Assembly: GCA_015489315.1 (NCBI GenBank)
Contig: WFZZ01000211.1
Span: 1 to 39,038, forward strand
From: Deltaproteobacteria bacterium
Lineage (GTDB): Bacteria > Desulfobacterota > Dissulfuribacteria > Dissulfuribacterales > QOAL01
Reading direction: 5' to 3'
Length of the DNA: 39,038 bases
Part shown: positions 25,053-37,297 of the stretch, in pieces
Numbering within the stretch: position 1 is the first letter of the stretch
How the letters are laid out: the number at the start of each line of letters is the position of its first letter
The notes under the pieces: generated by a model
What the model saw: the letters and a program-made list of their open reading frames with translations, nothing else
Told to the model about the DNA's origin: nothing
Databases searched by the model: none
Position numbers and translations under genes: made by a program

Positions 25053-25144
25053 TCATTTTTTGAAACCTTGATATCCTTGACCTTCATTTTTCAAGGAATT
25101 ATTGTCCAGAAAATTTTGAGGAGCGGTTGGAAGGAAGTCTTGTT

Positions 25145-25834
25145 ATGAAAAAATCTACTGTCATATTTTTGTCATTTATCTTTTTTGGCGCAGTAAATGG
25201 CCTTACTGGATATTATGTATATTTGCATCAGGAGCTTTTAAAAGATTGGCAGGGTTATGCCCTGGCAGGAGCCCCTTTGGCCGCATGGTTTCTTTTTACC
25301 GTAATAATTGCACTGATACCTGTAAAAAAAGAAGAAGAGGAGACAGAAGTTAAAAAAGAATCTCCAGAGGTAGAAGGCAAAAAAGAGGAGGAAGAAAAGG
25401 ATAAGACCCAAGAAGAAGAGGGTGAAGTAGAGAAAGAAAAAGAGCTTTATCCAAAAGAGGTTGCGGTTGTCCAGCTCCTAGGTCTTCTTCAGCGGGAAGG
25501 AAGACTAATAGATTTTCTCCAGGAAGACATAGAGCCCTATGATGACGCCCAGATTGGCGCAGCAGTGAGGGAGGTTCACAGAGGCTGTCGTCAGGCCCTT
25601 AATGATGCCCTTGATCTAAGGCCAGTTTTGGAAGCACCTGAAGGAAGCGAGGTTGAGATAGAGGAGGACTTTGATCCAGGTAAGATCAGGCTTATTGGGA
25701 ATGTCCAGGGTGAGCCCCCTTTTAAAGGAGTAATAAGGCATTGTGGCTGGCGTTTTACAAAAATTAACCTTCCAAAGTGGACGGGAAAGGAAAAGACAGA
25801 TACAATCGCCCCGGCCGAGGTGGAGATAGTCTGA
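25145..25834 (+). CDS. DUF2760 domain-containing protein with two membrane helices
   Basis: The ATG at 25145 is chosen because GGAAGG (25129-25134) precedes it at a normal distance; an in-frame TTG at 25127 would add six residues. The protein (229 residues) has two membrane helices (about 4-25 and 35-57), a highly acidic/basic Glu-Lys linker (about 60-105) and a C-terminal DUF2760 domain with VQLLGLLQREGRLIDFLQE, YDDAQIGAAVREVH and GVIRHCGWRFTKINLPKW. DUF2760 genes are known to sit next to a divergent Hsp70 gene, which begins four bases downstream. The topology puts the DUF2760 domain in the cytosol if both ends are inside. Function is unknown. Confidence 0.8.
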   Translation: MKKSTVIFLSFIFFGAVNGLTGYYVYLHQELLKDWQGYALAGAPLAAWFLFTVIIALIPVKKEEEETEVKKESPEVEGKKEEEEKDKTQEEEGEVEKEKELYPKEVAVVQLLGLLQREGRLIDFLQEDIEPYDDAQIGAAVREVHRGCRQALNDALDLRPVLEAPEGSEVEIEEDFDPGKIRLIGNVQGEPPFKGVIRHCGWRFTKINLPKWTGKEKTDTIAPAEVEIV

Positions 25835-25838
25835 TATC

Positions 25839-27638
25839 ATGGCCAAGGAAGATTCAAGATTTATAATTGGTATTGACCTAGGTACAACCAATTGTGTTCT
25901 ATCCTTTATTGACGGCCAGAAAGACGAATCCCCTATTGAGATATTTGAGTGTCCGCAAATAGAGGCCCCTGGAGAAATTAAAGCCCACAGACTCCTTCCA
26001 TCATTTATCTACATCCCCACTAAACAGGAAAAGGATGCCGGTGGACTTACAATGCCCTGGGATCCTTTTGGAGAAAGGGTTGTTGGAAAGTGGGCAAGGT
26101 TAAGGGGGGCTGAAGTTCCAGGAAGGCTTGTAAGCTCTGCAAAGAGCTGGCTTTGTCATAAGGGTATTGATAGAACTGCACCAATCCTTCCCCTTGAAGC
26201 AGCAGAAGATGTCCAGAAGATGTCTCCAATTGTAGCAACTGCCACATTTTTAAGGCACTTTAAGGCCGCTTGGAATCATACTGTTGGAAAGAGGGAAGGG
26301 GTTAAGATTGAAGATCAGGATATTTATATAACCATTCCTGCATCCTTTGATGCAGTAGCAAGAGACCTTACGGTAAAGGCTGCCTCTTCTGCTGGCCTTG
26401 AAGATGTTACGCTTCTTGAAGAACCCCAGGCCGCTTTTTACGCATGGCTAAATAAATGTGGGGACGACTGGAGAAAAAAGGTGGCCCCGGGTGATATAAT
26501 CCTGGTGGTGGATGTCGGGGGAGGCACATCGGATTTTAGCATCATCCAGGTCTCGGACAAAGAAGGTCAACTTGTCCTTGAAAGGCTTGCAGTGGGAGAG
26601 CACCTTCTTCTTGGCGGGGACAACATGGATCTCACCCTTACCCATCTACTTTTTGAAGATCTTAAATCCAAGGGTAACAGGCTTGATGCTGGGCAATTCC
26701 AAGCCCTTTGGAACAATGTCCGTCTTGCCAAGGAAAAGCTTTTAGAAGACGAAACTCTAGAAGAAGTCCCTGTTGTGATCACTGGAAAGGGCTCTGGCCT
26801 TGTGGGTGGGACCATAAGGACGAGCCTTACAAGACGGCAGGTAACCGAGGTTATCCTTGATGGCTTTTTCCCGTTCTGCAGCCTTGATGAAAAACCAAAG
26901 GAAGAGCCAGTTGTAGGGCTAAGGGAGCTTGGGCTTCCATACTGCAAGGATACTGGCATAACAAGGCATCTTGCAAACTTTTTGACAACCCAGGGACGTG
27001 CCCTAAATATGGAAGGAGGCCTTACCCCTTCTGCAGTTATATTTAATGGAGGGGTCTTTAAGGCAAAGGCCCTTAGAAAACGCATGATGGAGGTAATTTC
27101 CTCTTGGGTAGGCCAGGAAGGAGAGGTCAAGGAGCTAGAGGGCACAGACTTTGACCTTGCCGTATCCCGGGGTGCAGCCCATTTTGGACTTGTTCAAAGG
27201 GGTGAAGGGATAAGGATCAGGGGCGGCATAGGAAGGTCTTATTATATTGCTATAGAGTCTTCAGGGCTTGCTATTCCTGGCATGCCGCCTTCCATCAAGG
27301 CCCTTTGCGTTGTCCCAAAGGGACTGGAAGAGGGCTCTGTCATTGATATCCCCCAAAAGGAGTTTGGCCTTCTGGTAGGTCAGGATGTTGAGTTTAGATT
27401 TATGGCTTCAAATGAAAGGCCAGAAGACAAACCTGGTGATATGATTGATAATTGGGAAGGAACTATTGAACCAATTAGCACCCTTAAGACAAATATTGAA
27501 GCCCCTGGTATTGAGCCTGGCACGGTCATTCCTGTAACCCTTGAAGTAAAGGCAACAGAGATCGGAACCCTTGCAATTTCTCTGGTCTCAAAGGAAAAGG
27601 GCCTAAAATTTGACCTGGAGTTTGATGTAAGAAATTGA
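25839..27638 (+). CDS. Divergent Hsp70/DnaK-family chaperone
   Basis: This 599-residue protein has an Hsp70 ATPase domain: phosphate-1 loop FIIGIDLGTTNCVLSFIDG at the N terminus, the phosphate-2 loop VVDVGGGTSDFSII near 225, and the adenosine motif FNGGVFKAKALRKR near 405. The C-terminal part from ~470 is a shorter beta-type substrate domain (EVKATEIGTLAISLVSKE), without the helical lid length or tail of DnaK. It is therefore an Hsp70 family member outside the housekeeping DnaK group. No DnaJ or GrpE gene is adjacent. It is flanked by DUF2760 and a HEAT-repeat gene that overlaps its stop, suggesting dedicated partners. Confidence 0.88.
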   Translation: MAKEDSRFIIGIDLGTTNCVLSFIDGQKDESPIEIFECPQIEAPGEIKAHRLLPSFIYIPTKQEKDAGGLTMPWDPFGERVVGKWARLRGAEVPGRLVSSAKSWLCHKGIDRTAPILPLEAAEDVQKMSPIVATATFLRHFKAAWNHTVGKREGVKIEDQDIYITIPASFDAVARDLTVKAASSAGLEDVTLLEEPQAAFYAWLNKCGDDWRKKVAPGDIILVVDVGGGTSDFSIIQVSDKEGQLVLERLAVGEHLLLGGDNMDLTLTHLLFEDLKSKGNRLDAGQFQALWNNVRLAKEKLLEDETLEEVPVVITGKGSGLVGGTIRTSLTRRQVTEVILDGFFPFCSLDEKPKEEPVVGLRELGLPYCKDTGITRHLANFLTTQGRALNMEGGLTPSAVIFNGGVFKAKALRKRMMEVISSWVGQEGEVKELEGTDFDLAVSRGAAHFGLVQRGEGIRIRGGIGRSYYIAIESSGLAIPGMPPSIKALCVVPKGLEEGSVIDIPQKEFGLLVGQDVEFRFMASNERPEDKPGDMIDNWEGTIEPISTLKTNIEAPGIEPGTVIPVTLEVKATEIGTLAISLVSKEKGLKFDLEFDVRN

Positions 27639-28507
27639 CAAGTGCCATTATTCCCTTTGATCTTAATCAGCGCCTACTTGATCAGGCCCAATTTTATATA
27701 AAAAATCCCTCAAAGATACTTGAAGAAAGGGAAAAGGCAGTTCCACTTCTTTTAAAGGCCCTTAAGGCAGGGGACCTTGAGCTTCGAAGACAGATAATTC
27801 TTCTTCTTTGTAGCATTGCCAAGGAAGATATCTACTGGCCCCTTTATGAGATCATGAAGGATGAAAATGAATCCGATGAGTTAAGAGACCAGGCGGCAAT
27901 ACATCTTGCTGTAATAGGCCCCTTTCTTGATGATCCCCAAGGGCTTGTAAGGAGGCTCATAGCAGATATCTCCTCAGGTGACAGGGAAATTAAGACTAGG
28001 GCCATCATGGCTTTAGGATGGGAAGGAAATTTGATGGCAGTTGTTCCACTCATTGAATGCATGTACGAAAAAGACCTTGAGGTACAAGAACTTGCAGTAA
28101 ATGCCCTTTGCAATCTAAAAGATAGCAGGCTTATGGGCCTTTTGGCAGATAGGATAAAGACCTGTTCATTTGATCAAAAAAGGGCAATCCTTTTTAATCT
28201 TTGGAGATTTAAAGATAAGGAAGACGAGGTTGCAAAGATATACAAAAAGGAGCTTGAATCAGGGGATCCTGCACTAAAGCTTGATATCCTGATCCTTTTG
28301 GGCCAAATAAAGGCCCGGCCAGAAAATGAAAGTGTATATAGAGAGCTTCTAAAGGACAAGAGCTCAAGGGTGAGGGCAATGGCCCTTGAAAGGCTTGGCG
28401 AGCTAGGGGCCTTAAGTTATGAAGAGCTTTTGCCATTTTTGGATGATACCTCAATGGAGGTAAAAAGGGCAGCCCTTATGATAATCCAGAATTTAAAGTG
28501 TACATGA
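27635..28507 (+). CDS. HEAT-repeat protein coupled to the Hsp70 gene
   Basis: This 290-residue all-helical protein has at least six HEAT-type repeats from about residue 20 to 285, with recurring units such as LLLKALKAGDLELRRQIILLL, IKTRAIMALGWEGNLMAVVPL, VQELAVNALCNLKDSRLMGLL and VRAMALERLGELGALSYEELL. The start is a TTG overlapping the Hsp70 stop (TTGA at 27635-27638), a classic coupling arrangement. HEAT scaffolds usually bind proteins; a role as nucleotide-exchange factor or adaptor for the neighbouring Hsp70 is inferred from position only. HEAT-type exchange factors are known for eukaryotic Hsp70s, but homology is not shown here. Confidence 0.78.
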   Translation: MTSAIIPFDLNQRLLDQAQFYIKNPSKILEEREKAVPLLLKALKAGDLELRRQIILLLCSIAKEDIYWPLYEIMKDENESDELRDQAAIHLAVIGPFLDDPQGLVRRLIADISSGDREIKTRAIMALGWEGNLMAVVPLIECMYEKDLEVQELAVNALCNLKDSRLMGLLADRIKTCSFDQKRAILFNLWRFKDKEDEVAKIYKKELESGDPALKLDILILLGQIKARPENESVYRELLKDKSSRVRAMALERLGELGALSYEELLPFLDDTSMEVKRAALMIIQNLKCT

Positions 28508-28525
28508 CCCCAAATTTTCTTGACA

Positions 28526-29173
28526 ATGGAGAAGCAAAAGAAAGAGATAAAAATTGCTATAATCTATTATTCCTATAGCTGTCAGACCGCACAATTGATA
28601 AAGTCAATTGAAAAGGGTCTTTCCAGAAAGGGAATCGATCTTTTTATTCAAAGAATTCGGCCAGTTAAAAAGATATTTTTTCCTTTTAGTGGTGTTCTCG
28701 AGACCCTTTCAATGATGTTAAAGACCTTTCTTAGAAAAAGAATGCCAATTGAGCAAATAGATACTTGGGGGATTTCTTCAGCAGATTTTATTATCCTTGG
28801 AGGTCCAACCTGGTCCTACAACCCAAGCGGCCCCATCCTTTATTTTTTGGATAAATATGGAGAGCTTTTAAAGGGGAAGGAGGTCCTTCCAGTAATCTCA
28901 TGCAGGCGCTATTGGAGACATCACTATTATTATCTTAAAAAGAGATTAAGGGCCATTGGAGCAACATGTGAACCTGCATGGGTATTTAACCATAAGGTTG
29001 ATGAGCCATGGAGCACCATAGGAACCTTTATGACCCTGGCAGGTATGAACCCAAGGCATCATCCCCTTATTAGAAAACACTATTCCAAATACGGACACAG
29101 CAAAAGACAGTTGGAAGAGGCTAGGGCCATGGCAGAGGACCTTGCCAAGGCCCTTTTAAAAGAAAAGACTTAA
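28526..29173 (+). CDS. Flavodoxin-fold family protein
   Basis: This protein of about 215 residues begins with the flavodoxin strand-loop IAIIYYSYSCQTAQLIKSI, where Tyr-Ser-x-Ser/Cys-x-x-Thr resembles the FMN phosphate loop. The middle has DFIILGGPTWSYNPSGPILYF, the typical GGPTW loop of flavodoxin-like/NADPH-dependent FMN reductase proteins. It probably binds FMN and moves electrons or reduces a small substrate. A TTG at 28520 is an alternative start; the ATG at 28526 was chosen, though neither has a clear ribosome site. It follows the HEAT gene by 18 bases and may belong to its transcript. Confidence 0.72.
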   Translation: MEKQKKEIKIAIIYYSYSCQTAQLIKSIEKGLSRKGIDLFIQRIRPVKKIFFPFSGVLETLSMMLKTFLRKRMPIEQIDTWGISSADFIILGGPTWSYNPSGPILYFLDKYGELLKGKEVLPVISCRRYWRHHYYYLKKRLRAIGATCEPAWVFNHKVDEPWSTIGTFMTLAGMNPRHHPLIRKHYSKYGHSKRQLEEARAMAEDLAKALLKEKT

Positions 29174-30233: not shown

Positions 30234-30380
30234 TTTTCTTGAACATAACTTTTAACTATCTTTACCGCAAAAGTTTAAGGGACATTTTCCTTTTGCCAAG
30301 GTATTTATTTTGATAATCCCTTTACCATTTATTTTAAAAATATTTTGGGTTATTCTCTCCCAAAAAGTCTTGGAGGCTAC

Positions 30381-30713
30381 ATGCAGCAGTATGTCATTGA
30401 TCAGTTAAGGGAAAGTGAGATAGAACGGATAAAAGGCTTTTTGGAGAAAAATGCAGAAAAGAGTGAGCTTGATAATCTCTTCTGGCTTCAAATACCAGAT
30501 GATCTCTTGTCTTCCATCCAGTGCGAACACAGGGACTGTGGCCCCTTTTGTGCAGGAATCGAAGTCACTGACGATGCTGTGATATTCGAAATGCTTGTAA
30601 GAAGCAGAAAAAAGATACGCTGCAAATGTATTGGATATGCAACACAGCAGCAAAGACAATTTATCCTAAATTTTTGTGATAAAATGCTCAGTGAGACAGA
30701 GGTTCAGGCTTAG
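30381..30713 (+). CDS. Uncharacterised small Cys-rich protein, possible metal-binding
   Basis: The ATG at 30381 is chosen because GGAGG at 30372-30376 precedes it at a normal spacing; an in-frame TTG at 30345 has no such site. The product is 110 residues. A helical N-terminal half (IDQLRESEIERIKGFLEKNA) is followed by LFWLQIPDDLLSSIQCEHRDCGPFCAG, with Cys/His residues spaced like a metal site, then a beta-rich VIFEMLVRSRKKIRCKCIGYAT and a final helix. I do not recognise a named family. It is followed by a HAD-family gene eight bases downstream with a strong AGGAGG site, so the two are cotranslated. Confidence 0.65.
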   Translation: MQQYVIDQLRESEIERIKGFLEKNAEKSELDNLFWLQIPDDLLSSIQCEHRDCGPFCAGIEVTDDAVIFEMLVRSRKKIRCKCIGYATQQQRQFILNFCDKMLSETEVQA

Positions 30714-30721
30714 GAGGAAAA

Positions 30722-31828
30722 ATGATTCAGTTAAACATGGATTGTGAAGGACCTTTGACCCAAAATGACAATGCCTTTGAGCTATGTCAGGAATTTATAC
30801 CAAATGGCGGGAAGTTCTTTTCGATAGTGAGCAAATATGATGATTTCCTGGCAGATGTAATAAAAAAGCCTGGTTATAAGGCAGGAGATACCCTAAGGCT
30901 TGTGCTTCCATTTTTAAAGGCCTTTGGGGTTACAAACAATAAAATGGAGGAGTTTTCAGAAAAGACCCTCATCCTTCTTTCTGGAACCGAAATTATGCTG
31001 CCAATCTTAAATTCCTTTCTCCCAAGCTTTATTATCAGCACAAGCTATAAACCCTACCTTGAGGCCCTTTGTAAGCTAACATCATTTCCCATTGAAAATT
31101 GTTTTTGCACAGAAGTGGATATTGATTCCTACCAGATAGAAGATAGTGAGGTAGATAGATTGAGGCATTGGGCAGATGAAATTGCCAAAATGGAAATGAT
31201 TGAATGGAAAGATGATGCAAAGGGAATCGAAGACCTTGAACCAAAACATCAAGAGAGCGTAAAAAGACTTGATGATATCTTTTGGAACGAGCTTTATGAT
31301 ATGGAAATTGGAAGGCTTCTTAAAGATATTAAGCCAGTAGGAGGAGTTGAAAAGGCAATATCCATTGAAAAAAGTCTTGAGCGCACTGGTTTTTCAAAAT
31401 CGAATGTAGTCTTTGTCGGAGATAGCATAACAGATTGTCAGGCCCTTGACCTTGTATCCAAAGCTGGGGGAGTTGCTATCTCTTTTAATGGTAACAGATA
31501 TGCAATTAGAAATGCTGATTATGCAATACTTTCCGAAAATACATGTATTATAGGTGGGATTTGCGGACTATTAAAATCGCAGGGTATGGATGCCCTTAAA
31601 AGATTTAAGAAAGAAAGCAATGGTAGGCTCCACATGGATGAGCTACTTTGCGAGATTTTAAAAAGTGATGCGCCAGAGGCCATATTAAAAGAGATAGAAA
31701 GATGTCGCGAAAAAGATGAATTATTGGAGATTTATAATATTCAAGGAAAAAAGGATGAGTCTTTAATTAAAAAGAGTGAAGAAGTAAGACGTATGGTAAG
31801 GGGCCACAGGATAGGAGAGCTTGGATAA
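30722..31828 (+). CDS. HAD-superfamily protein resembling archaeal EhaR
   Basis: This 368-residue protein starts with NMDCEGPLTQNDNAFEL, a HAD motif I variant with Asp7-x-Glu9 in place of the usual Asp-x-Asp. LLSGTE and FIISTSYKPY (about residues 102-112) follow as motif II, and VFVGDSITDCQALD (about 230-243) as motif IV. The DCEGP-x4-NDNAFEL start is the pattern I associate with archaeal proteins annotated as energy-converting hydrogenase A subunit R. No hydrogenase genes are present, so a phosphatase-like role on an unknown substrate is more likely. The C-terminal ~80 residues are helical and charged. An AGGAGG site at 30712-30717 drives translation. Confidence 0.75.
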   Translation: MIQLNMDCEGPLTQNDNAFELCQEFIPNGGKFFSIVSKYDDFLADVIKKPGYKAGDTLRLVLPFLKAFGVTNNKMEEFSEKTLILLSGTEIMLPILNSFLPSFIISTSYKPYLEALCKLTSFPIENCFCTEVDIDSYQIEDSEVDRLRHWADEIAKMEMIEWKDDAKGIEDLEPKHQESVKRLDDIFWNELYDMEIGRLLKDIKPVGGVEKAISIEKSLERTGFSKSNVVFVGDSITDCQALDLVSKAGGVAISFNGNRYAIRNADYAILSENTCIIGGICGLLKSQGMDALKRFKKESNGRLHMDELLCEILKSDAPEAILKEIERCREKDELLEIYNIQGKKDESLIKKSEEVRRMVRGHRIGELG

Positions 31829-31838
31829 GGAGTCAAAA

Positions 31839-33059
31839 ATGATTAAAAAATTTTCAATGACTATATTGCTGGTCGTTTTTATTACGTTTCTTTCATTTCA
31901 AGGTGCATTTTCAGACACAAAGGACTCAAAAGGATATGCTGGAAACATTTCCTTTTCAATAAGGCTTTTTGATGAACTTAAAAAAAATAACAATAAAAAC
32001 ATCTTCTTTTCTCCCTATAGTATAAGGACAGCCCTTGCCATGACCTATGAAGGTGCGAAGGGAAAGACCAAGGAAGAGATGGCAAATGTCCTCAACTTCC
32101 CCTACGACTTAAATAGATTACACAGTGAGATAAAAAGAGAAAATGAATACTTCAAAGGGATTCAGGAAAAAGGAGAAATTGAGCTAAATAGAGCAAACTC
32201 TTTATGGCTTCAAAAGGGTTATCCAATTCTTGATTCATATTTTGAAAACATTAAAGAATATTATTCCATAATTCCATTTCAGGTAGATTTTATTCATGAG
32301 ACAGAAAAGGTGAGAAAAGAGATAAACCTCTGGGTGGAAAGAGAGACCAAAAAGAAAATAACCAAGCTCATAAGGCCAAAACAGCTCAAGCCCAATACCA
32401 CCCTTGTTCTTTGCAATGCCATTTATTTTAAGGGAAGCTGGCTCAATGGTTTTGATAAAAAGAATACCTTTAAGGCCCCTTTCTATATTGATGGAAAACA
32501 ACAAGTCCAGACAGATTTCATGAACCAAGAGGGGGATTTTAAGTTTTTGAAGCTCCAGGGTCTTTCCACTATTGAGCTTCCATACAAAGGAAAAGACCTT
32601 TCTATGGTAATTTTTCTACCAGAAAAAAGAGATGGCCTGAAGAAAATGGAAGATGAACTTTCTCAAAAAAGGATGGAAGAAATCTTAACTGCTCTTTCAA
32701 AGGTTAATGGGCAGGAAGTAAAGGTAATCATCCCTAAATTCAAAATGACGTGTAGTTTTGAGCTTTCAAAGGCATTGTCAGATATGGGAATGCCCCATGC
32801 CTTTCGTGATGCGGATTTTTCGGGGATAGATGGACAAAGAGACCTTTTTATAGGAAGTGTGATTCATAAGGCCCATGTAGATGTTAACGAAGAGGGGACA
32901 GTGGCTGCTGCAGCCACTGCAGTAGTGGTAACAAGAATGGCAATGCCTATAAAATATAAGGAGATTATTTTTAGGGCAGATCACCCCTTTTTATTTCTTA
33001 TAAAGGACAACAGACAGAATAAAATTTTATTCTTTGGAAGATTGGTCAAGCCCATTTAA
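31839..33059 (+). CDS. Secreted serpin-family protease inhibitor
   Basis: The ATG at 31839 is chosen because AGGAG (31828-31832) lies six bases before it; a TTG at 31821 overlaps the HAD gene. The product is 406 residues with a signal peptide (hydrophobic residues 8-24, ending at GAFSD). It is a full-length serpin: IFFSPYSIRTALAMTYEGA near the N terminus, NTTLVLCNAIYFKGSWLNGF, FLKLQGLSTIELPYKGKDLSMVIFLP, and the C-terminal DHPFLFLIKDN. The reactive loop EEGTVAAAATAVVVTRMAM has the Gly-Thr-Val-Ala-rich hinge of inhibitory serpins; counting from the hinge Glu puts Met at P1 and Arg at P2. The target should be a serine (or cysteine) protease in the periplasm or outside. Confidence 0.93.
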   Translation: MIKKFSMTILLVVFITFLSFQGAFSDTKDSKGYAGNISFSIRLFDELKKNNNKNIFFSPYSIRTALAMTYEGAKGKTKEEMANVLNFPYDLNRLHSEIKRENEYFKGIQEKGEIELNRANSLWLQKGYPILDSYFENIKEYYSIIPFQVDFIHETEKVRKEINLWVERETKKKITKLIRPKQLKPNTTLVLCNAIYFKGSWLNGFDKKNTFKAPFYIDGKQQVQTDFMNQEGDFKFLKLQGLSTIELPYKGKDLSMVIFLPEKRDGLKKMEDELSQKRMEEILTALSKVNGQEVKVIIPKFKMTCSFELSKALSDMGMPHAFRDADFSGIDGQRDLFIGSVIHKAHVDVNEEGTVAAAATAVVVTRMAMPIKYKEIIFRADHPFLFLIKDNRQNKILFFGRLVKPI

Positions 33060-33072
33060 TCACTAAAGGCCG

Positions 33073-34956
33073 CTATTCCCCTTCAAGTGCCTCTTTTACC
33101 GATGGAAAAAGAGAAAGATCGGTATGTGGGAGGAAGAGGCACGATACATAATTATCCATAAACCTTGGATTGTCACTTAAGTCAAAATGGGTCATCATCT
33201 GGGCCACTTCTTCCATCTCTTTAAACTTAGGCCATGAATAAGCGCAAATTTCAGCTCCTAAAAGGGAGGTGTTCCCTGCGAAAAAGAACCTATCCCTTGG
33301 AATATCTGGCAAAAGGCCAATTGTAATCGCCTGTTCAAGGTCAAGATAGCTTCCAAAATTTCCTGCCAAAATCACCCTTTCAAGGTCTGAAATTGCCATA
33401 CCCACAGATTCCAAAAGTGTAAGATAACCGGCAAACATGGCACCCTTGGCCCTGATCAAATTTTCAACATCTGCCTCAGTAAACACAATGTCTTCCCCAG
33501 TTGCAGTGGCATCCTTTGTAACTACTACATACTCCCATCCGTCCCTTCCTGGCCTGATTCTGGGAGTATTTAGATCCTGCTGGAATTTTCCCTGCCTGTC
33601 CAGGGCCCCTGTCATAAAAAGCCCTGCAAGAAGGCTTATTATTCCAGAGCCACAAATCCCCTTTGCCTTTTTCCCTCCAATGGTAAGCACCATTGGCTCA
33701 AAGGTTTCAGGGTGAATATGCACCACCTCAACTGCACCAACAGTTGCCCTCATACCATGCTTGATGCCTCCGCCTTCAAAGGCAGGTCCTGCAGAACATG
33801 CAGCACAGGCCATCCAGTCCTGATTGCCAAGGACAATTTCACCATTTGTGCCTATATCAATAAAAAGGGTGAGTTCAGGCTGGTGGTTCATCTCCACTCC
33901 AACTACCCCTGCCACAATGTCTCCCCCAACATAGCTTGCAACACACGGAGCAAGAAATATCCTTACATGTTGTGGCAAATCAATTCCAATTTCCCTGGCC
34001 CTAACAGGTGGAAATCTATTAGCAACCGGGGTATAGGGCGCCTCCCTCAGATATCTAGTCTCAAGGCCCAGGAGAAAATGGGTCATAACTGTGTTGGCCG
34101 CTATGGATAAGAGGCAGATATCTTCTTTGGTTCTTTTACCTTCTGTTAGAAGTTCATCTATAAGCTTATTTATGCAGGACACTATCTTTTCCTGAAGGAT
34201 TTTAAGCCCCTGGCCTTTTCTAGAAAATTCCATTCTGGAGATAACATCTTCTCCATAGCTAACCTGAGGATTATAATCAGAGGCCTCAGAAATTATTTTT
34301 TGATCCAATAATGAGACAAGTTTTGCCGAGACTGTGGTTGTTCCAATATCTATGGCAATGCCATGCTGCCCTTCTGTCTTATTGCCTGGCTCAACTCTTA
34401 TGAGTCTTTTGTGATCTATTCGATCAGTTTCCATGAAGCTTGCTGTTATCTGCCACTTACCTTCCCTCATGGCATAGGGAAGCCGATAGAGCACCTGACT
34501 GTCCACATCCAGGTGGAAGCTCTGGCCCACTTCACGCCTAATCCTTCCAAGGTCACTCAGGTTATCGCTAAGTGTTGGTTCTGGGACATGCATCAAGGAT
34601 TTGGTTATGGCAGGCTCACTCTTTATGGAAATTTTTCTTCCTCGTGCCTTAATCCACGAGGTTGCCTTTTTGGCAAGAGGTCTTTTAAGGGCCTTTCTGT
34701 CCATCTGGGATTCAACTGGGACCCTTATAACCACGTCTGTTTCAGGAACTGTTACGCAGGCCTTCCAGCCTCCTTCTGGTAGCTCTTCCCCTTTAACAGT
34801 TCCCTCTTCAACGAATATGCGGCATTTATTACAAACACCTGCTCCACCACAACTTGCATTTATGTGGATGCCTGCCTCCATGGCAGCCTTAAGGAGGTTT
34901 TCCTGATCTTTAAATTCTATGGTTATATTTGAAGGTAAGAATGTGACCTTTGGCAT
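33073..34956 (-). CDS. ASKHA-domain 2Fe-2S ferredoxin protein (RACo/RamA-like corrinoid protein activator, DUF4445)
   Basis: The ATG at 34956 (627 residues, AAGGA site upstream) is preferred over an in-frame TTG at 34983. An N-terminal plant-type 2Fe-2S domain has Cys36-x5-Cys42-x2-Cys45 and Cys67. A linker region (about 85-205) leads to a C-terminal ASKHA ATPase with GIAIDIGTTTVSAKLV, FIDIGTNGEIVLG and CSAGPAFEGGGI, ending in a conserved NFGSYLDLEQAITIGLLPDI stretch. Related proteins reductively reactivate inactive cob(II)amide in corrinoid methyl-transfer proteins. No methyltransferase or corrinoid protein gene lies in the window, so its partner is elsewhere. Confidence 0.88.
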   Translation of the reverse strand: MPKVTFLPSNITIEFKDQENLLKAAMEAGIHINASCGGAGVCNKCRIFVEEGTVKGEELPEGGWKACVTVPETDVVIRVPVESQMDRKALKRPLAKKATSWIKARGRKISIKSEPAITKSLMHVPEPTLSDNLSDLGRIRREVGQSFHLDVDSQVLYRLPYAMREGKWQITASFMETDRIDHKRLIRVEPGNKTEGQHGIAIDIGTTTVSAKLVSLLDQKIISEASDYNPQVSYGEDVISRMEFSRKGQGLKILQEKIVSCINKLIDELLTEGKRTKEDICLLSIAANTVMTHFLLGLETRYLREAPYTPVANRFPPVRAREIGIDLPQHVRIFLAPCVASYVGGDIVAGVVGVEMNHQPELTLFIDIGTNGEIVLGNQDWMACAACSAGPAFEGGGIKHGMRATVGAVEVVHIHPETFEPMVLTIGGKKAKGICGSGIISLLAGLFMTGALDRQGKFQQDLNTPRIRPGRDGWEYVVVTKDATATGEDIVFTEADVENLIRAKGAMFAGYLTLLESVGMAISDLERVILAGNFGSYLDLEQAITIGLLPDIPRDRFFFAGNTSLLGAEICAYSWPKFKEMEEVAQMMTHFDLSDNPRFMDNYVSCLFLPHTDLSLFPSVKEALEGE

Positions 34957-34983
34957 ATCCTGTCCTTGTACCTTGATTTTCAA

Positions 34984-35078: not shown

Positions 35079-36032
35079 ATGAAAATACTTGTAACAGGGG
35101 GCGCAGGCTTCATAGGCTCAAATGTGGTGGATGCCTATATCCGAGAAGGACATGACGTGGTTGTTGTTGACAATCTCTATTCAGGAAAGCTTGAAAATTT
35201 GAATCCAAAGGCAAGATTTTATCTAATGGACATCCGTTCTGATGAGATTGAAAAGGTCCTTGATATTGAAAGGCCAGATGTAATAAATCATCATGCCGCA
35301 CAGATTTCTGTTCCCTATTCTGTTGAAGACCCAAGATTCGACTGTGATGTAAACATAAAAGGATTTGTAAATCTTTTAGAATCCTCAAAGGATAAGGGCG
35401 TTAAAAAGATAATATTCATATCCTCAGGTGGTGCAATTTACGGAGAGGCAGAGGAATACCCAACTACAGAAAACTATCCTCCCAAACCCCTTTCTCCCTA
35501 TGCCATAGCCAAGGCGGTCTCAGAAGACTTTCTCTATTTTTACAAGCACCAGTACGGGATCGATTATACTGTCTTAAGATATGCCAATATTTATGGGCCA
35601 AGGCAAATTCCCCACGGTGAGGCAGGTGTTGTGGCCATATTCATGGATAGACTCCTTTCTGGCAAAAAATGCACACTCTTTCATTTTCCAGAAGACAAAA
35701 GGGGAATGATTAGGGATTACTGTTTTGTTGGGGACGTGGTGGAGGCAAATATCAAGGCCCTTACAAAGGGAGGTGGACAGGCCTTTAATATTGGAACAGG
35801 TATTGAGACAAAGACCCAGGATCTATTTGAAAAGATATTTGATGTGATATCTGAAAGGGTCCCACTGGATAAAGAACTTTTTGTTTTAAATAAAGAGGAG
35901 GCAAGGGCAGGGGACCTTAAAAAAAGCTGTCTTAACTGTGAAAAGGCAAAAAGGGAGCTTGGCTGGGAGCCAAAGCACAGCCTTAAGGAAGGGCTTAAAA
36001 AAACCTTGGACTGGAGGCTAAAAAAGAATTGA
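35079..36032 (+). CDS. NAD-dependent sugar-nucleotide epimerase (GalE-like)
   Basis: This 317-residue extended SDR protein has the NAD loop GGAGFIGSNVVDA, VVVDNLYSGK, NHHAAQISVPYSV (about residues 70-82), the catalytic ISSGGAIYGEAEEYP (about 114-128) and SPYAIAKAVSEDF (Tyr/Lys pair, about 139-151), plus YANIYGPRQIPHGEAGVVAIF. This is the UDP-glucose 4-epimerase-like group common in O-antigen clusters. GGAGG at 35070-35074 precedes the ATG. The stop overlaps the TTG start of the nitrilase-RfaE2 fusion gene, so the two are coupled. Confidence 0.87.
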   Translation: MKILVTGGAGFIGSNVVDAYIREGHDVVVVDNLYSGKLENLNPKARFYLMDIRSDEIEKVLDIERPDVINHHAAQISVPYSVEDPRFDCDVNIKGFVNLLESSKDKGVKKIIFISSGGAIYGEAEEYPTTENYPPKPLSPYAIAKAVSEDFLYFYKHQYGIDYTVLRYANIYGPRQIPHGEAGVVAIFMDRLLSGKKCTLFHFPEDKRGMIRDYCFVGDVVEANIKALTKGGGQAFNIGTGIETKTQDLFEKIFDVISERVPLDKELFVLNKEEARAGDLKKSCLNCEKAKRELGWEPKHSLKEGLKKTLDWRLKKN

Positions 36033-37297
36033 AGTTAAAGGTTTCCTCCTGCCAGTTAAAGATAGAAGATGATATTGATATTACCTTTCAAAAGGCCTTT
36101 GGGCTTTTAAACAGGGCATCTCAAAAGGGGGCAAGACTAATTGTTCTTCCTGAACTTTTTCCCTATGGCCCTGTTTTTGAAAAAGAAAAGGCATATGAAT
36201 TTTTGGAAAGGACCCCTTCCATTTTGGAGGAATTAAGGGCCTTTTCAAGGGATAAAAGGGTTTTTATCGCCTGCGGACTTATATCAGGAAGTGGGGATAA
36301 TGGTTTATTCAACAGTCAGTTTTTCATATCCCCAGATGGAAAGGTTTTTCGATATGACAAGATAAACCTTTTTCCTCCCTTTAAAGAGGACAAGGTCTTT
36401 TTAAAGGGCGATGCCCCAAAAATCTTTTCTATTAAGATTAAAAATGCCCCTTTAACCCTTGGGGCAATGATATGTTTTGACCTTCGTTTTAGCGAGCTAT
36501 CAAGATACTACTCCTTTTTGGGAGTAAATGTCCTTTTGCTTTCTAGCCTTTGGCCTAGCTCAAGGATATCCAACTTTAGGACACTTTTAAGGGCAAGGGC
36601 CATGGAAAATCAGTGTTTTTTAATTGCCTCAAATGCCTGGGGGAAGAAAGGAGAAATAAATTTTGGAGGGGCGTCTGCCATAATCGGGCCAGATGGAAAT
36701 GTCTTGAAAGAAATGGAAGAAGAGGAAGGAATAATAGTTTCGGAAATAGATACCAGGAGGCAGGAGGATGTTAGAAATTTTTTTAATACCTCAAGGCCTC
36801 CTGGCCCCTGGTCCTTTGATCCCGAGAAAAAGGTCTTAGGCCTTAATGAGCTTAAAGAGATTGTGAAAATGAGGAAAAGGGCAGGGCAAAAGATGGTCTT
36901 TACTAATGGCTGCTTTGACATCCTGCATGCAGGGCACATTTCCTATCTGAAAGAGGCCCGAAGCCTTGGGGATTTTCTGGTGGTTGGCCTAAACAGTGAC
37001 GAGTCAATAAGAAGGATAAAGGGCGAAAAAAGGCCTGTAATTTCCGAGGAGCAAAGAAGCCTTGTCCTTTCATCCCTTTCCTTTGTGGATTACGTAGTGA
37101 TCTTTAACGAGGATACCCCAAGAAAGCTGATTCACACCCTTTCACCGGATCTTTTGGTAAAGGGAGCTGACTGGGAGGAAGAAGACATAGTTGGCGCAAG
37201 GTTTGTAAAAGAACATGGCGGGGAAGTAAAGAGGATACATTTTAAGGTCGATATCTCCACCACAAAGATAATCGAAAAGATAGCACGAAGTTTTTAA
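36029..37297 (+). CDS. Fusion of nitrilase-family amidohydrolase and RfaE2-type adenylyltransferase
   Basis: This is a single 422-residue frame with a TTG start overlapping the epimerase stop (TTGA, 36029-36032), with GGAGG at 36013-36017. Residues 1-~260 are a carbon-nitrogen hydrolase with the Glu-Lys-Cys triad: Glu42 in VLPELFP, Lys111 in RYDKINLFPPF and Cys149 in AMICFDLRFSE. Residues ~272-422 are a cytidylyltransferase-fold domain with FTNGCFDILHAGHISYL (HxGH, His300/His303), KGEKRPVISEEQR and LVKGADW, closely matching RfaE2/HldE-C, which adenylylates D-glycero-beta-D-manno-heptose 1-phosphate. No stop or frameshift separates the parts. The hydrolase substrate is unknown. Confidence 0.88.
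   Translation: MKLKVSSCQLKIEDDIDITFQKAFGLLNRASQKGARLIVLPELFPYGPVFEKEKAYEFLERTPSILEELRAFSRDKRVFIACGLISGSGDNGLFNSQFFISPDGKVFRYDKINLFPPFKEDKVFLKGDAPKIFSIKIKNAPLTLGAMICFDLRFSELSRYYSFLGVNVLLLSSLWPSSRISNFRTLLRARAMENQCFLIASNAWGKKGEINFGGASAIIGPDGNVLKEMEEEEGIIVSEIDTRRQEDVRNFFNTSRPPGPWSFDPEKKVLGLNELKEIVKMRKRAGQKMVFTNGCFDILHAGHISYLKEARSLGDFLVVGLNSDESIRRIKGEKRPVISEEQRSLVLSSLSFVDYVVIFNEDTPRKLIHTLSPDLLVKGADWEEEDIVGARFVKEHGGEVKRIHFKVDISTTKIIEKIARSF

Follow-up and report, generated by a model that had tools for sequence, protein, structure and literature searches.

We describe here three genes that follow one another on the + strand of a 39,038-nucleotide stretch of DNA (hereafter the window), which is contig C211 of the 2.4-Mb assembly of a Deltaproteobacteria bacterium (genome G000). 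They encode a small His/Cys protein, a protein of the HAD superfamily and a serpin, and an earlier note on this DNA had read them as a single operon, in which an archaeal-type enzyme and a protease inhibitor were unexpectedly combined. Our analysis suggests a different picture, which we consider probable: the first two genes form a conserved unit behind which a stray serpin gene lies, and the HAD protein, an enzyme of the type of AF1437 from Archaeoglobus fulgidus, works in a pathway together with a PurN-like formyltransferase and a PfkB-family kinase. Two sets of genomes were used, a near set of 60, of which 46 (G000-G045) are in the order Dissulfuribacterales, and a wide set of 395 genomes of the phylum Thermodesulfobacteriota. 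Calling of open reading frames in neighbourhoods kept the longest of overlapping frames, and some neighbours were thus missed; the counts given below rest on genome searches. Viral contigs and plasmids were also searched, and relatives were not found in them. The HAD gene and its motifs lie in the window as follows.

30712..30717, + strand: ribosome-binding site AGGAGG of the HAD gene (read from the sequence)
30722..31828, + strand: 368-residue AF1437-type HAD protein, predicted phosphatase or phosphotransferase (homology to 1y8a, fold and motifs)
30740..30754, + strand: HAD motif I, Asp7-Cys8-Glu9-Gly10-Pro11, with Asp7 as nucleophile (sequence and alignments)
31037..31045, + strand: HAD motif II, Ser106-Thr107-Ser108 (alignments)
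31418..31435, + strand: HAD motif IV, Gly233-Asp234-Ser-Ile-Thr-Asp238 (alignments)

The HAD protein belongs with the AF1437-type family. Among Pfam and NCBIfam models only generic HAD models matched it, below their cut-offs. Its relative in the PDB is AF1437 itself (1y8a), found at E 2.9e-33 by single-sequence phmmer and at 7e-54 with a profile; the two proteins share 33% identity over 310 residues, the motif Asp-x-Glu-Gly-Pro (Asp-Trp-Glu-Gly-Pro in 1y8a) and a C-terminal Arg-Gly...Leu-Gly end. The predicted model of the window protein (predicted local distance difference test, pLDDT, 94) matches 1y8a at Foldseek E 4.2e-20, and the two align over 310 residues with Z 38.9 and a root-mean-square deviation of 1.9. 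The window protein differs in being bacterial, in its length (368 residues against 332) and in a longer stretch between motifs II and III. AF1437 is a structural-genomics protein without a named function, and we found no publication on its HAD family in the open-licence PMC literature. The catalytic motifs are intact in the window protein (D7-C-E-G-P, S-T-S and G-D-S-I-T-D) and invariant or nearly so in the family: Cys8-Glu9-Gly10-Pro11 was present without exception in 31 homologues, and Asp7 in all but one. Since motif I is kept both in the homologues and in 1y8a, Asp-x-Glu is a signature of the family.

The next folds were bacterial and archaeal SerB phosphoserine phosphatase entries (Z 17.6-18.9), which have in common with the window protein the HAD core and a helical stretch between motifs I and II. 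Motif I of SerB is Asp-x-Asp; the window protein differs from SerB in its Asp-x-Glu, in an extra helical insertion and in its C-terminal part, and scores 15.6 bits against the SerB equivalog TIGR00338, for which the cut-off is 144.15. ThrH of Pseudomonas aeruginosa (1rku), a phosphoserine:homoserine phosphotransferase, has the same Asp-x-Glu-Gly (D-L-E-G) in motif I and a related fold, although the match is weaker (Foldseek E 1.9e-4, and outside the 50 best VIA-align matches). At 206 residues ThrH is without the insertion and the C-terminal part of the window protein, and 1rku was absent from the phmmer and profile matches of the latter.

In a tree of 67 bacterial HAD proteins and 1y8a, the sole archaeal homologue, which sits on a very long branch (3.98), the proteins follow the bacterial families, with 15 label changes where 15 is the minimum possible. 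The HAD protein is inherited vertically in Thermodesulfobacteriota. A sibling metagenome-assembled record (JALXCD010000003.1, Deltaproteobacteria) encodes a HAD protein 95% identical to that of the window. The earlier note was thus right about an archaeal-type relative, inasmuch as the protein is related to the solved archaeal AF1437; an unexpected archaeal import is not supported, given a tree that follows bacterial families. The tree that it proposed, as a check for an ordinary bacterial phosphatase family, gives a divided answer: the family is bacterial and vertical, and the only solved relative found is archaeal. The Asp-x-Glu motif that it singled out is present, as the signature of a whole family and not as a special alteration. 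As a side observation, genes for a rhomboid protease and a ClpP-like SDH protease come after the HAD gene in loci L108-L114, L146 and L147, which represent two or three families of the phylum.

The HAD gene is co-inherited with a gene for a PurN-like formyltransferase. HAD presence, taken as a match above 80 bits, was scored in 84 of the 395 genomes (four weaker of 88 matches were dropped as generic HAD), and PurN-like presence, taken as a profile match at E 1e-20, in 89. Both genes were present in 76 genomes, HAD only in 8, PurN-like only in 13 and neither in 298, so that a PurN-like gene accompanies the HAD gene in 76/84 genomes versus 13/311 of the others (Fisher p 9e-58, with related genomes treated as independent). 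In 37 of these 76 genomes the PurN-like gene lies directly upstream of the HAD gene, usually behind a PfkB gene. Within Dissulfuribacterales the PurN-like gene is found in 43 of 46 genomes, away from the HAD gene; among 20 loci fetched from the order, 6 have it adjoining a PfkB gene; in the window genome it is on another contig (G000:C2:4206-5012), ahead of a Kdo-kinase-like gene. The partner protein resembles PurN in its Formyl_trans_N domain with the conserved Asn-x-His-Pro and Asp, and differs in its score with the NCBIfam PurN model (66-86 bits, cut-off 150), in a C-terminal extension and in its linkage to PfkB and HAD genes. TIGR00639 was over its cut-off in only 1 of 27 genomes tested, HAD-bearing or not; being rare with or without HAD, it gives no ground for singling out the HAD genomes as those where the PurN-like protein is the only PurN. 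The HAD protein, the PurN-like formyltransferase and the PfkB kinase are likely partners in an unnamed pathway.

The state of the active site also points to the formyltransferase. The motif I Asp is present in all 76 genomes that have both genes. Of the eight HAD genomes without the PurN-like gene, seven could be read (the protein of G111 is a fragment), and in four of them (G051, G273, G351 and G368) Ala replaces the nucleophile; in G313 the Asp is kept and motif II is changed, and the proteins of G228 and G230 look intact. The nucleophile is thus kept in 76/76 versus 3/7 genomes (p 2e-5 if genomes are independent). Six of the seven readable genomes without the PurN-like gene are from one family, f17, within which the nucleophile is kept in 6/6 versus 2/6 (p 0.06). 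These figures are suggestive of a tie between decay of the nucleophile and loss of the PurN-like gene, which is what one would expect if the HAD activity were needed only alongside the formyltransferase. HAD loci L073, L132, L134 and L219 read A-C-E-G-P, all in genomes without the PurN-like gene.

The association of the three genes might alternatively reflect shared lineage ancestry and no common pathway, given related genomes and a HAD tree that mirrors taxonomy. We regard this as improbable, because the order PfkB kinase, PurN-like formyltransferase, HAD recurs around the HAD gene in many families, because HAD presence is scattered across 16 families besides Dissulfuribacterales, and because the nucleophile is lost where the PurN-like gene is missing.

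Somewhat less probable still is that the HAD protein fills the gap of a missing phosphoserine phosphatase in these bacteria, or is a phosphoserine:homoserine phosphotransferase like ThrH. The SerB entries are its nearest folds after AF1437, ThrH is among its Foldseek matches, and SerB was over cut-off in just one of the 60 near genomes, one without the HAD protein. In PMC5764234 the phosphoserine phosphatase of Desulfovibrio vulgaris figures as an unfilled gap in 2018, and a phosphoserine phosphatase activity is mentioned for ThrH; a 2026 paper speaks of phosphoserine phosphatase genes in all clades (PMC12827605). However, SerB is rare throughout the phylum (over cut-off in 26 of 395 genomes), and the genomes lacking it do not clearly coincide with those that have the HAD gene (2/84 HAD genomes versus 24/311 others, p 0.09), which leaves this function unsupported as the principal explanation. 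The four f17 genomes that have lost the nucleophile have no obvious reason to drop serine synthesis, and PurN-like and PfkB partners are foreign to that pathway.

Upstream of the HAD gene lies the gene for the small protein.

30372..30376, + strand: ribosome-binding site GGAGG of the small-protein gene (read from the sequence)
30381..30713, + strand: 110-residue small protein with an ATG start, from a widespread unnamed family, with a probable metal site at His50/Cys53/Cys81/Cys83 (homologue alignment; no Pfam or NCBIfam model)

In Dissulfuribacterales the small-protein and HAD genes are a true and old pair. The HAD protein is present in 39 of the 46 genomes and the small protein in 37, never without the HAD protein. 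In 33 of the 37 genomes with both, the genes are on the same strand and at most 500 bp apart, in 31 of these with a gap of -4 to 108 bp; in the remaining four they are on separate contigs. The protein itself has six Cys and one His, and among these only His50, Cys53, Cys81 and Cys83 are invariant in 32 homologues, to which Glu70 and Arg74 are also common. These four potential ligands suggest that the protein probably binds a metal. The window protein matched no Pfam or NCBIfam family, and the 32 members gave scattered single Pfam matches at E 0.02-0.09. Its AlphaFold model (pLDDT 95) had no Foldseek match at E 0.001 or better, and the VIA-align matches (Mediator Med18, KA1 and METTL16) reached a best Z of 7.6, which is in the noise range, and were not used. 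In several families of the order a PabB/PabC fusion gene is divergent from the pair or near it (L056, L058, L060, L061, L063, L066, L067 and L070); this gene and the HD and metallo-hydrolase genes near the pair in several order families were considered as candidates and taken as ordinary gene order.

Several observations, besides the relatedness of the genomes counted, weigh against a pathway of this kind and against a functional bond within the pair. The four losses of the nucleophile are all in f17 and so represent few events, and in another f17 genome without the PurN-like gene, G230, motifs I and II are preserved along with the Asp residues of motif IV. The 13 genomes with the PurN-like gene only indicate that a genome can do without the HAD protein or use a replacement for it. 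In the fetched loci of the window's own genus PfkB is not beside the PurN-like gene, with no genome-wide PfkB search made. The small protein, which is present in 146 of the 395 genomes, does not track the HAD protein outside the order (23/68 HAD genomes versus 107/310 others, odds ratio 0.97) and the loci fetched there did not show the two side by side; the pairing may be mere stable gene order. No constant partner was seen in 20 small-protein loci outside the order, two of which are from genomes with the HAD gene elsewhere nearby or on other contigs.

The third gene of the run encodes a serpin.

31828..31832, + strand: ribosome-binding site AGGAG of the serpin gene (read from the sequence)
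31839..33059, + strand: 406-residue serpin, a lineage-specific neighbour outside the conserved unit (PF00079, E 7e-117; adjacent to HAD only in G000 and G005)
31839..31913, + strand: N-terminal signal-peptide-like stretch of the serpin, MIKKFSMTILLVVFITFLSFQGAFS (by eye)
32889..32945, + strand: reactive-centre loop of the serpin, hinge EEGTVAAAAT, P1 at about Met367 by counting (sequence; hinge consensus from PMC8233489)

It scores 391 bits with PF00079 (cut-off 27), and the bacterial serpin of PDB entry 8gxv matches it across the whole serpin domain (phmmer E 1.2e-88). Its hinge, EEGTVAAAA, departs in one position, Val for Glu, from the consensus of inhibitory serpins, ExGTEAAAA, as quoted in an excerpt of PMC8233489. 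A functional operon whose three products cooperate is very unlikely. Spacing is tight (intergenic distances of 8 and 10 bases, read from the sequence), the ribosome sites are good, and one sibling, G005, has the same trio. Nevertheless, among the nine of 60 near genomes with a serpin, the gene adjoins HAD only in G000 and G005; in six others it is on a different contig from HAD, and the last has no HAD protein. The region was also fetched from five other members of the genus, in one of which it is truncated by the end of the contig; there HAD is followed by a convergent aminotransferase gene, and the upstream synteny is common. These distributions show that the pair is old and the serpin a recent neighbour. 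The serpins of G000 and G005 are 96% identical, the others compared 38-47%, and a signal-like N-terminus is seen by eye on the serpin and on neither the HAD nor the small protein. The serpin gene came to lie beside the conserved unit recently and by chance and does not belong to it, and the trio was rejected as a system.

Regarding transcription of the run, promoter-like sites within it were not above the chance rate and no terminator was seen in it; the spacing of the genes would be consistent with co-transcription.

We give almost no weight to a reading of the HAD protein as EhaR, a component of an energy-converting hydrogenase that would have come from methanogens (the earlier note associated its type with methanogen EhaR), because, for all its relatedness to an archaeal protein, the EhaA model PF17367 matched none of 20 HAD-bearing genomes tested, the window's own included, with a positive control in Methanocaldococcus jannaschii, no hydrogenase genes were among the Pfam-scanned neighbours, and the HAD tree is vertical. 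The NCBIfam scan of the HAD protein named no EhaR model, and a hydrogenase function was rejected on the absence of EhaA in 20/20. Other parts of that note fared better: its coordinates, ribosome sites and gaps agree with the sequence, its unrecognised Cys/His-rich small protein does have six Cys, one His and no family model, and its serpin is a serpin by the PF00079 score. Its three-gene unit is not supported: the first two genes are found together across the order, and the third adjoins them in two genomes only.

Elsewhere in the window, an upstream run at 25127-29173 is kept in the genus and encodes an unknown protein, an Hsp70-like protein, a HEAT-repeat protein and a flavodoxin-like protein. 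Convergent with the serpin gene, at 33073-34983, is a gene for a RACo/AcsV-like corrinoid activator (605 bits versus an AcsV cut-off of 800). Unusually, a single open reading frame at 36029-37297 fuses a nitrilase-type CN_hydrolase with a heptose-1-phosphate adenylyltransferase domain (TIGR02199 above cut-off); a sibling copy of this fusion is in locus L083.

We envisage the following scheme. The HAD protein, an AF1437-type enzyme of phosphoserine-phosphatase fold, would most likely use Asp7 to accept a phosphoryl group from a small phosphorylated metabolite, forming a predicted aspartyl-phosphate, while Glu9, like its counterpart in ThrH, would take the acid/base role that normally falls to a second Asp; water or an acceptor alcohol would then receive the phosphoryl group. 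The HAD protein would share its pathway with the PurN-like formyltransferase and the PfkB-family kinase, and the small His/Cys protein, probably metal-binding, would be made together with it in Dissulfuribacterales. The serpin would be a separate secreted protease inhibitor, recently landed downstream. Going further, we tentatively propose, with somewhat less than even confidence, that the HAD, PurN-like and PfkB proteins are three enzymes of an undescribed Thermodesulfobacteriota pathway joining a phosphorylated metabolite to one-carbon (formyl) metabolism. In it the HAD protein would be a phosphatase or phosphotransferase of the Asp-x-Glu kind, whose nucleophile disappears after loss of the formyltransferase.

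These results connect the structure of AF1437 with a large family in bacteria, with a signature motif for catalysis and with two likely partners, and so open its function to testing. The puzzle of an archaeal enzyme beside a protease inhibitor dissolves, since the serpin came to its place by chance within a single small lineage. The partners, their conserved gene order and an active site that decays where one partner is missing together indicate a small pathway, which has no name in the family libraries used and may bear on the unassigned phosphatases of sulfate-reducing and sulfur-disproportionating bacteria.

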